A stretch of DNA of 64,000 nt from Geminocystis herdmanii PCC 6308 (GTDB lineage Bacteria; Cyanobacteriota; Cyanobacteriia; Cyanobacteriales; Cyanobacteriaceae), in NCBI RefSeq assembly GCF_000332235.1, contig NZ_CM001775.1, positions 1,704,230 to 1,768,229 of the forward strand, read 5' to 3'. Position numbers and translations under genes: made by a program. Below the pieces are notes generated by a model, which saw nothing but the letters and a program-made list of their open reading frames with translations, did no database searches and was not told the origin of the DNA. The number at the start of each line of letters is the position of its first letter. The stretch's first letter is position 1. This document shows positions 41,342 to 48,180 of this stretch, one piece after another.

Positions 41342-44296
41342 TCACCATAATAAAAAGTGTTGTTGATAGCGGTTATCGTTGAAAAGATGATACTGGAGAT
41401 TAAGTTTATTATTTGTGTCTAATTTCTCTAATATTTGTTCATGGGAATAACTGATTTTTTTGGCTATTTGTTTTGTTTGCCAGAGATGATAATAAATTAA
41501 AGAATCAGAGGTTAAATATTCTAGTTGATGATATTGATTCTGCATTTTAATTATACCTTCACCTAATGGTAAATAGTTCGATCGATCTTGATTTTCTTGT
41601 AACCATAAAATGAGAGCATAAGCTAAGGTAAAATCGGTACTATTTTCCTTTAAAAAACTTTTTCGATAACTAAGACAATGTAATAATAATTGTTCTAATT
41701 CTTGAGTATTTTTATGGGCAAAACTATATTTTATTCCCCCTAAACTGCGATATAAATACCATGCTTTTATATCTTCAATTTCCGCTAATGGACTTTGGGT
41801 AGTTCGATCGTCAGGATAATTCCAAAAAATCCCTAAAACTCGATCGACCAAATCACAATTAATATAAGGTAAGACTCTATTTTTAAATTCTGTATCCCCT
41901 GCGCCTCGAAATTTCTCATCATAAAAACCAAAACGACTATGCAAATTACGACGATATAAACCCCCCACATAGGTTAAATAGCAAGTATCAAGATAAACTA
42001 AATTCTGACTAAATCCACGGCGGTTATACGTCATCAAGTCTTTAATCCAATTTCCCTTCTCATCCACTTCCGTTACTAAACTATGCCCCACAACCCAATC
42101 TAAATCAGGATTTCGATCGAGCTTATGTGCTAAAATTTCTAAAGCATCCATAGTCATCATCTCATCTACCCCAAGAAAAGTGATGTACGGAGATTGAGAG
42201 AGTAAAATACCACGATTCCAAGCGCTTTGAATAGTTTCCCTTGCTTCACTTCTGACGTAAACTATCGGTATATTCAGATGAGGTAAAAGTTGTTGAAAAA
42301 CTTGATATTCCTGTTGTGGTGAGCCACTATCAATTAAAATAACTTCAGCGTCTTGTTTTTGGAAGATCGTGTGTTGAGCTAAAATTGACAAAAAACACTC
42401 CAGTTTACTTTCTGCATTGTACAACGAAACGATCACCGAAACTCGATAATTTTTTTGCTCACGATAATCCTTAATAAATTCGTAGGATTTTTCCTGATAG
42501 TTAAGTAAATTTTGGTAATTATTTAATAGATATTCATAAACTAATTGTGGAGAATTTTGAGAGGGAGAATAAAGTAGATTTAATAACGATGCTTCTTCTT
42601 GAAAATTATGATTAACTAAAATTTGACTAACATTTTCTAACTGATTAAATCTATCTTCATTAAGAAGACGAATAATTCTGAGGTGATAAGTAGCAGATAA
42701 TAGCTGATTTCCCCTAATATTTTCTAATCTTGCTATCTCTTGCCAAATTTTCAGACGATTTATATAATATCCTGTTTTAAATTTATTAATATTTTCAGTA
42801 TCAGTTTTAAGAGGATGACTTAAATTTTTTAATTGTTGAATTTTATCATCAATTTCCTTAGCTGAATTTTCCGTTAAACTCTCGATTATTTTCCACTTAG
42901 AGGCAAAAAAGAGACTTTTAATTAATTGATTAGTAACAATATTTTTTCTATTATTTACTTGCTTTTTTATTTGACTTATTTGCTTTTTTCCTAGATTAAC
43001 TATAGGATTAACTATTTTTTTAGTAATTTGAATAAATTGTGGTTTACCCCAATATTGTTTTTTATGAGCATAATTAATTAATTCTTGATACCATTGATTT
43101 GTTTTTTCTCTTATTTCTTGATCATAATTACTACATTGATTATAAATATCTTTAATTGTTAATTCTCTTGGTATCAATTCTGGAGAAATAAGAGATATTT
43201 TTGCTTCTAAATTCAAACGATATTCTTGATAATTGCTGAGAAGTTCGATAATTTCAGGTAAGGATGAATAAAAATTATTTATATCTAATTTGATAAAAGG
43301 TATCTGAGGAAAATTATCTTCTAAAAAACGGCATACTCCAGCTTTTTCACTGATAATAGTTGGGCAACCTGCAAATAATGATTCTAAAGCAACTAAATTT
43401 AAGGTATCAAATCGAGAGGGTAAAATTGTTACGGCATTGAGATTAAATTTTTCTTGTAATGCGTAGCGATTAACAGGAGGTAATATATTTATTTGACTAA
43501 AACGTAAGGCTAACATTTCTTGTAAATAAAATTCTCCTGTTTTGCCATCTAAGGTTTCGGGATTACCGCCAATTATATTGACTTCACTATAGAGATTTTT
43601 TGATAAAAAACTAACTAAATTAACAAAAATATCGACTCCTTTCCCTTTTTCTTTTCTACCAATAAAGTTTAAACTAGGTTTTGAATCTGATGGAATATAA
43701 TTAATATTGGGAGTTAAATTAAGAAAGGAGAAAGGATGTAAATAATAATTAGGGAAATTGCTTTTTTTTTGCCACCATTCTAAATAATTTTTACTGATAC
43801 CATAACGAATATTTGCAGTTTGATATTGTAAATTTTCTGCAAATTCTAAATTATTAATATAAGTTCGATCGAGCATCCAATCATGGTGTAAACTTTGGGA
43901 GACAATACCATGTAAAGAGATAACAATTTTCTCAAATTTTACTTGATAAAAAGTTAAAGCAGATTCTAAAAAAAGTCCGTATTGTTCATAATCAGGATAG
44001 TCGATAATGTCAAAATCTAAACCTTTTAAAGAATAACTAATATTACTTGCAATTAAAAAAGGACGAGATAATTTTTCTAAAGGTAAATTAGTCGATAATC
44101 CGTTTAAATCTGACTTTAAATATTGTTGCTGATAAGGTATAACTTTAGAATTATTGGGTCGATCGACTTTAAAATTTTCTTCTATAATTAAATAGTAAAA
44201 TTCTATCTCTGGATTCGTTTCAATAAGACGGCAATAAAAAGTTTGCCCTCCTCCAATTTTATGAAATAAATCAAATTCAGCAATTAAAACTTTCAT
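41342..44296 (-). CDS. Bidomain glycosyltransferase (GT4 + GT2)
   Basis: 984 residues. Residues 1-380 form a GT4/GT-B glycosyltransferase with LNFIGRKEKGKGVDIFVNL and the nucleotide-sugar box LPSRFDTLNLVALESLFAGCPTIIS. A helical linker of about 240 residues follows. Residues 630-800 are a GT2/GT-A domain (YRVSVIVSLYNAESKLECFLSIL, ILIDSGSPQQE, LGVDEMM in place of the DXD). The C-terminus is helical. Such fusions build surface polysaccharide or O-antigen-like glycans. It stands alone, with no other glycan gene around. Confidence 0.85.
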   Translation of the reverse strand: MKVLIAEFDLFHKIGGGQTFYCRLIETNPEIEFYYLIIEENFKVDRPNNSKVIPYQQQYLKSDLNGLSTNLPLEKLSRPFLIASNISYSLKGLDFDIIDYPDYEQYGLFLESALTFYQVKFEKIVISLHGIVSQSLHHDWMLDRTYINNLEFAENLQYQTANIRYGISKNYLEWWQKKSNFPNYYLHPFSFLNLTPNINYIPSDSKPSLNFIGRKEKGKGVDIFVNLVSFLSKNLYSEVNIIGGNPETLDGKTGEFYLQEMLALRFSQINILPPVNRYALQEKFNLNAVTILPSRFDTLNLVALESLFAGCPTIISEKAGVCRFLEDNFPQIPFIKLDINNFYSSLPEIIELLSNYQEYRLNLEAKISLISPELIPRELTIKDIYNQCSNYDQEIREKTNQWYQELINYAHKKQYWGKPQFIQITKKIVNPIVNLGKKQISQIKKQVNNRKNIVTNQLIKSLFFASKWKIIESLTENSAKEIDDKIQQLKNLSHPLKTDTENINKFKTGYYINRLKIWQEIARLENIRGNQLLSATYHLRIIRLLNEDRFNQLENVSQILVNHNFQEEASLLNLLYSPSQNSPQLVYEYLLNNYQNLLNYQEKSYEFIKDYREQKNYRVSVIVSLYNAESKLECFLSILAQHTIFQKQDAEVILIDSGSPQQEYQVFQQLLPHLNIPIVYVRSEARETIQSAWNRGILLSQSPYITFLGVDEMMTMDALEILAHKLDRNPDLDWVVGHSLVTEVDEKGNWIKDLMTYNRRGFSQNLVYLDTCYLTYVGGLYRRNLHSRFGFYDEKFRGAGDTEFKNRVLPYINCDLVDRVLGIFWNYPDDRTTQSPLAEIEDIKAWYLYRSLGGIKYSFAHKNTQELEQLLLHCLSYRKSFLKENSTDFTLAYALILWLQENQDRSNYLPLGEGIIKMQNQYHQLEYLTSDSLIYYHLWQTKQIAKKISYSHEQILEKLDTNNKLNLQYHLFNDNRYQQHFLLW

Positions 44297-44449
44297 AGAA
44301 ATAATATAGTTTTTTTATTATTTTAACCTAAAAAAACACCACAGAAAAAAATCAGTCAATTTTTACCATAGACATTAAAGATATTTAATAGAATAAGGGT
44401 TAATTTAATTAAATAATTAATCATTATATTTACCCCTAAAATAATATTA

Positions 44450-44820
44450 GGCTCTTCTACCGCAGGGTTTTTTCTTTCTCAAAATTTGGTTTAATTAAAA
44501 ACTATAATTGGTAAGAAATCTAGCCATTTTTTCTGATTAGAAAATCAATTATTATTAGAAACCATGATATTTTTGATGGAAATTGAACTTACAAAATACA
44601 ATTTTATCCTGACTTTAAAAAAACCCTGCTTCTACAGTAGTGATGACAAATTAATAATAAATAACCAATAAAATCTTTGATATATAATAATTTTAGTATT
44701 TTAAAAATGCAATTATTATAAATTTATGGTTTGCATTTCACTTAATACCTTTTTTTAGACATAATTTATCATACTCAAAGTAAAAAAGCTATAATTTATC
44801 ACAATCAAAGTGAGATAACC
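44450..44820. mobile_element. GGCTCTTCTAC-family MITE, copy B, split by a nested element
   Basis: Flanked by perfect 8-bp duplications TAATATTA (44442-44449 and 44821-44828). The left end GGCTCTTCTAC stops after 11 bp, an unrelated 168-bp sequence follows, and the MITE resumes at TTCTACAGTAGTGATGACAA. The right end is doubled: ATAATTTATCATACTCAAAG and, 30 bp on, ATAATTTATCACAATCAAAG. Confidence 0.85.
44461..44629. mobile_element. Nested non-autonomous element inside MITE copy B
   Basis: Inverted ends GCAGGGTTTTTT (44462-44473) and AAAAAACCCTGC (44618-44629), 12 bp each. CTTCTAC occurs on both sides of the insertion (44454-44460 and 44629-44635), consistent with a target duplication of about 7 bp. 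Non-coding interior. Confidence 0.7.
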
Positions 44821-44977
44821 TAATATTATGAGCAAGAATATTAATGCCTATTCTTTCGTTTGATCAGAAAACTTTTTCAGCAACCTTTAATTATAACTAA
44901 CTGGATGATTAAATGAGGAGAAAATCATTGGTTATTCATAATAATAGTATTAAAAAAATAAGTGATTAAAAAATCAA

Positions 44978-45172
44978 CTATAAACTACTATGAGCCAAAT
45001 AAGATAAACAATTGTTGACTAAAAAATAGACTACCATCATCGCCGCCGCACACAAAGCAACTAATGCACCTGCTAACATTAAGGAAAATTCACGATGATC
45101 AAAGGCTTGTTGCATTAAATGCAATGACCAAGCTACAAGAGCAACATCAAAAATCAGAATCGGAATTAACAT
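44978..45172 (-). CDS. Small hypothetical membrane protein
   Basis: 64 residues with two predicted helices (ILIFDVALVAWSLHLM and LAGALVALCAAAMMVVYFLV) joined by a short loop with DHREF. It resembles small conserved cyanobacterial membrane proteins of unknown function. Just 76 bp downstream of the NlpC/P60 gene on the same strand. Confidence 0.65.
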   Translation of the reverse strand: MLIPILIFDVALVAWSLHLMQQAFDHREFSLMLAGALVALCAAAMMVVYFLVNNCLSYLAHSSL

Positions 45173-48010: not shown

Positions 48011-48038
48011 TGTTCTCTTACTTTGAGTATAATAAATT
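48011..48038. repeat. Solitary end of a GGCTCTTCTAC-family MITE
   Basis: GTTCTCTTACTTTGAGTATA followed by ATAAATTA matches the right ends (reverse complement) of copies A and B. No opposite end was found nearby. Probably a truncated copy. Confidence 0.55.
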
Positions 48039-48180
48039 ATTTCTGATCAAATTATTCCTGTACTAAGTACCTCCCCGTTTAACTTTTTGGGCAAACTCTA
48101 AGTAAAAATGCCCTATCTAAGCTAAATTAGTAAAATAATCGACATTTTTAACGTTATATTAATTGAGCTTAAACTGCATT

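Follow-up and report, generated by a model that had tools for sequence, protein, structure and literature searches.

In the 64-kb stretch of DNA analysed here, called the window below (positions 1704230-1768229 of a 4.26-Mb single-contig genome; G+C 0.35), one short mobile element lies inside another. It may be concluded, with a probability of about 0.9, that an ISL3-type MITE was present first, that an ISAs1-type guest then entered it by insertion, and that the site which it entered is hit recurrently. Host and guest are ordinary elements of known kinds; what is new is that an ISAs1-type guest family, otherwise favouring hairpins, repeatedly uses one base in the terminus of a MITE. The nest is flanked by a glycosyltransferase-like gene (41342-44296) and a small ORF (44978-45172), both on the minus strand, and no ORF of at least 60 aa was found within 44450-44820. 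A search for RNA families gave a single weak sub-threshold match (E 0.17), and the scans for promoters and terminators gave no signal above that of shuffled sequence. With the whole nested structure as a query, 55 matches were obtained in the window genome, the majority of them limited to one of its two parts, the outer or the inner.

The outer element, guest included, occupies 44450-44820 (plus strand), begins with GGCTCTTCTAC, ends with GAGATAACC and is broken by a segment whose 12-bp inverted ends are perfect; 196 bp remain when the guest and one copy of the 9-bp duplication are subtracted. Its target duplication TAATATTA, which the first-pass annotation of this DNA had called intact, is exact in all eight positions (44442-44449 and 44821-44828), and an exact 8-mer duplication would arise by chance at a fixed position with a probability of ~3e-5. 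Uninterrupted copies in the window genome have the form GGCTCTTCTACAGTAGTTATGATAAATTA ... TAATTTATCATACTCAAAGTAGAAGAGCC and are flanked by 8-bp duplications, for example ATTATATT at locus L002. Matches to the left end with at most one mismatch numbered 24 in the window genome, 17 in G003, 26 in G009 and 18 in G011, while the reversed pattern, used as a control, had none in these four genomes. The ends of the host match those of L110, an ISL3 transposase remnant in G004 that consists of GGCTCTTCTACAGTAGTTATGATAAAT ... TGTAGAAGAGCC within an 8-bp duplication, ATAATTAA, and has two ISL3 transposase fragments between its ends; it scores under the cut-off of the ISL3 model NF033550 because the gene is broken. 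Terminal repeats common with this remnant, an 8-bp duplication and a short, non-coding, multicopy body identify the outer element, as judged from sequence, as an ISL3-derived MITE of ~200 bp with about two dozen copies in the window genome, where the ISL3 family model recovered two transposase fragments only. A lone MITE-type right end (TTGTTCTCTTACTTTGAGTATAATAAATTA) without the remainder of the element was also found in the window at 48012-48044.

An ISL3-type MITE of 187 bp, with ends starting with GGCTCTTC, GGCTCTTCG ends and 8-bp repeats, is known from Microcystis aeruginosa (PMC11448079). Both MITEs are cyanobacterial, non-coding and of similar length, have 8-bp duplications and share their ends with an ISL3 element; they differ after GGCTCTTC, where TACAG follows in the window MITE and G in that of Microcystis, and no guest is described in the accessible part of that source (PMC11448079).

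The guest, a non-coding segment of 166 bp (CAGGGTTTTTTCTTTCTC ... GACTTTAAAAAAACCCTG), occupies 44463-44628 (plus strand). All the features by which a nested element had been recognised at first pass are present in the sequence, and comparison with relatives refined the limits. The 12-bp inverted ends are perfect; the size, put at about 168 bp, was roughly correct and becomes 166 bp when the element is taken from CAGGG to CCCTG; the motif CTTCTAC, noticed on both sides, is the first 7 bp of a true duplication of 9 bp, CTTCTACCG at 44454-44462 and CTTCTACAG at 44629-44637, which agree in 8 of 9 positions (by chance, 8 of 9 or better has a probability of ~2e-4). The point of entry is 13 bp inside the MITE, and not 11 bp. 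These limits and the 9-bp duplication follow from the paired ends in G009, which fix the register, since 29 of the 34 listed pairs have exact 9-bp duplications immediately outside CAGGG...CCCTG. A TA duplication of the IS630-like kind was dropped, the 9-bp register being exact in those pairs. The guest may also be read as having a 5-bp duplication and longer ends, AGCAGGG...CCCTGCT, inside a CT...AG target; this suits most copies as well as the 9-bp reading does, and L290 and L306 of G009 resemble 5-bp duplications.

Short repeats are frequent in this AT-rich region, so it might be asked whether there is a nest at all, rather than a chance assembly of such repeats. In the whole 64 kb there are only three independent inverted pairs that are perfect over 12 bp and spaced 100-250 bp apart; the pair GCAGGGTTTTTT is one of them, and no other match to it was found in the window at up to one mismatch. 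Beyond the window, many other copies of the inner sequence were found, as the first-pass annotation had asked for. These dispersed homologous copies have paired ends and duplications, and the guest-end pattern exceeds its reversed control by 42 to 4 in the window genome and 230 to 4 in G009, which makes a chance origin extremely improbable.

The two ends of the guest family are unlike just inside the common motif, with CATTCTC at one and CAAAGTC at the other, and the guest therefore has an orientation. CAAAGTC-type ends stand shortly before ISAs1 transposase fragments at L094 (G002) and at L272 in the window genome (3715236-3715611). A more complete element is L238, from another family of the same order: its ends are CAGGGCTGTTTC, its duplication is 10 bp long and its transposase scores 310 bits for ISAs1 against a cut-off of 70. 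The ends of L238 are similar, though not identical, to those of the guest. Because of this position of the CAAAGTC-type ends and this similarity to L238, the guest is most likely a non-autonomous element derived from ISAs1, presumably mobilised by an ISAs1 transposase in trans. The search did not find an intact autonomous ISAs1 copy with exactly the ends of the guest. Target duplications of ISAs1 elements are about 8-10 bp long. With the ISAs1 elements L238 and L091, the guest has in common CAGGG...CCCTG ends, duplications of 9-10 bp and, behind the same end, transposase remnants; it differs in being 166 bp long and non-coding and in a duplication of 9 bp, as against 10 bp in both of them. Nezha was considered as a relative of the guest through a literature search only, and was set aside.

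Two other arrangements were met among guest-type sequences. A third kind of dispersed repeat, ~66 bp long and containing the 16-bp palindromes GTTCAATTTATTGAAC and GTGTAATTTATTACAC, occurs alone at some 20 or more intergenic places (among them L049, L050, L056, L057 and L058) and also within the longer guest-family copies L004, L006, L008 and L065. At L151 (G036:C185 1-600), in a genome of another family, guest-type elements are in tandem with CTATAGTAG between them.

The order of events in the window, MITE before guest, follows from the 9-bp duplication of MITE sequence that flanks the guest inside the intact outer duplication. Uninterrupted paralogues of the MITE run through GGCTCTTCTACAGTAG without a break. 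These, and the many other copies of the inner sequence, are the very things whose absence would have spoken against the first-pass reading. The same order had been proposed at first pass and stands, but the doubled right end of the MITE, offered as part of its evidence, carries no information on order. The doubling itself is real: two 30-bp copies with a 21-nt core repeat lie at 44761-44790 and 44791-44820 (plus strand), and the outer one, adjoining the target duplication, is further from the family end than the inner one (7 versus 3 differences in 30). No second doubled right end was present among the loci compared. Slippage, or recombination with the end of another subfamily, could have produced the doubling, which cannot be dated and is silent on the time of the guest's arrival.

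We infer all the transposition steps, both enzymes included, from the anatomy of the nest. The ISL3-type MITE would have inserted first, moved in trans by an ISL3 transposase and creating the 8-bp duplication. Later, an ISAs1-type transposase acting in trans would have put its 166-bp non-autonomous derivative into the left terminal repeat of the MITE after GGCTCTTCTACAG. The 9 bp CTTCTACAG would thereby have been duplicated, and one of the two copies would later have changed to CTTCTACCG. Split after 13 bp of this repeat, the MITE was probably disabled. Both elements are now most likely immobile relics in the window genome, as neither family was found to have more than transposase fragments there.

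An uninterrupted version of the window locus was sought, as the first-pass annotation had suggested, in 15 genomes of the same family by means of the genes flanking the nest on either side, and was not found among them. G003 has the same pair of a small gene and NlpC on one side, with synteny lost before the site, and gave no clean empty site. G008 has a coaE-glycosyltransferase junction without the composite seen in G011, but the flanks of that composite are absent too, so that it is no clean empty site either; a search of the genome contigs with the NlpC protein gave a single distant match only.

The strongest evidence comes from G011, a genome of a different genus in the same family. Four further MITEs there (L118, L142, L270 and L271) have a guest after the same base as in the window, GGCTCTTCTAYAG, one of them with A for the first G. 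The identical base in every case, together with outer duplications that are intact or nearly so in the window, L118, L270 and L271, would also be expected if the nest had formed once and the MITE with its guest had then moved as a unit, the window and G011 copies being of one origin. The guests, however, are in both orientations: that of L118 is placed as in the window, and those of L142, L270 and L271 are inverted. Moreover, the four guests are 96.6-99.2% identical to one another over their shared length, and their hosts only 71-89%, which is much more divergence than among the guests. The inner duplications point the same way: both copies are CTTCTACAG in L118 and L271, both are CTTCTATAG in L270, and L142 has one copy of each sequence, so that in three of the four nests the two copies reproduce the host's own variant. 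A single composite that moved is thus largely refuted for G011 and, for all the nests taken together, improbable; the window copy alone, with its one guest and its distance from G011, may be such a moved composite.

Gene conversion could have spread the guest among MITEs in place of separate transpositions, and the single orientation in L142, L270 and L271 would agree with this. In that case the adjoining MITE sequence should have travelled with the guest. It is, however, diverged right up to the guest to the same degree as the remainder of the MITE, the duplication variants are not the same and the L118 guest has the opposite orientation, so that conversion appears even less probable than a moving composite. 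Since neither process predicts the observed combination of orientation, divergence and duplications, the G011 nests argue for separate insertions, and we regard them, on comparative grounds, as repeated insertion into one preferred site rather than a single event copied.

How unusual such repetition is can be estimated for G011 from rough counts, namely 18 MITE left ends and ~50 guests, the latter from 107 end matches (control 5). With a site density taken from the window and all CT-N5-AG sites treated as equal, 0.075 hits in MITE ends would be expected, and the probability of four or more is roughly 1e-6; if only 15% of these sites are usable, this rough figure becomes ~2e-3. In G009 none of the 26 MITE ends is occupied despite ~115 guests, and the habit of using MITE ends therefore depends on lineage.

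The 3.4-Mb genome G009 has ~115 guest-family copies (e.g., L289-L322); most insertions there are in short terminator-like hairpins, and many copies lie in the same CTCCCACAG or CTCCCATAG hairpin. Among the matches listed, 50 of 66 insertion sites are CT-N5-AG, in a search whose pattern disfavoured G at the first position. When the flanks of 31 listed copies with duplications of at least 7/9 were rejoined, the best stem at the insertion site averaged 7.3 bp, while displaced positions within these flanks gave 3.1 bp and CT-N5-AG sites of the window 3.3 bp (rank test p ~4e-14, with some sites being repeated hairpin sequence and so not fully independent). Typical empty sites, CCCCTCTCCCACAGGAGAGGGG and CCCCCTTAAAAAGGGGG, are terminator-like hairpins, and L238 is also placed in a hairpin-type site, CCCCCCGTGCACGGGGGG. 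To our knowledge, and according to literature searches, hairpin targeting has not been described in the ISAs1 family.

The MITE site CTTCTACAG fits CT-N5-AG, and its stem is only 4 bp (CTAC-A-GTAG), in contrast to most targets of the guest; this length is reached or exceeded in 39% of the CT-N5-AG sites of the window. As a target, the MITE end thus matches well in sequence but poorly as a hairpin. With so short a stem, hairpin targeting as the sole cause of its use is unsupported. The site may have been hit repeatedly because CTTCTACAG fits the consensus and adjoins the short CTAC-A-GTAG inverted repeat. A wider proposal is more doubtful and is offered tentatively: this ISAs1-type lineage might be target-selective, favouring 9-bp CT-N5-AG targets that lie mainly in terminator-like hairpins. 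In certain genomes the terminal repeat of an ISL3-type MITE, a competitor, might serve it as a standing target, and the one family would then disable the other at a fixed base.

A narrow search of the open-access literature gave no report of ISAs1-type guests repeatedly using one base of a MITE terminus. In Tn21-family transposons, the terminal repeats are entered repeatedly by the elements IS4321 and IS5075 (Partridge and Hall 2003, cited in PMC11187229), and the likeness, a mobile element recurrently entering the terminal repeat of another transposon family, is one of analogy only. IS4321 and IS5075 belong to the IS1111/IS110 group, with RNA-guided choice of target, in contrast to the ISAs1-type guest with its loose 9-bp target. 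One specific target and orientation, characteristic of that group, do not describe the guest, which is found in both orientations and at many other targets.

The significance of these observations is, in our opinion, that a single nested insertion becomes a replicated one, the order of events resting on independent cases and not on one sequence, and that a measurable target rule is suggested for an ISAs1-type family. Elements that prefer small terminator-like hairpins as targets should mostly come to lie between genes, with little harm, and such intergenic placement could help to account for the build-up of ~115 copies in one genome.

Some further loci deserve mention. At L118 (G011:C1 from 385944) and in the window (44296-44828), the nested MITE is immediately upstream of orthologous glycosyltransferase genes, 64% identical over the first 316 residues; the two nests have opposite orientation, unlike outer duplications and unlike far-side genes, and the shared neighbourhood may be a coincidence, or a tolerant or useful site. 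In the window genome, a guest-type element at L004/L031 (G000:C1 2991549-2991948) follows GGTTTTTCTACAG, which has two changes relative to the MITE terminus, and has lost its right side; it is perhaps a second, decayed nest. At L026 (G000:C1 ~3846757-3847064), a MITE flanked by an exact duplication of 8 bp, TAGATTTT, starts ~20 bp past decayed guest-type sequence, a possible reverse nesting with the MITE perhaps inside guest-type sequence; if so, the MITE and guest families were active over overlapping times.
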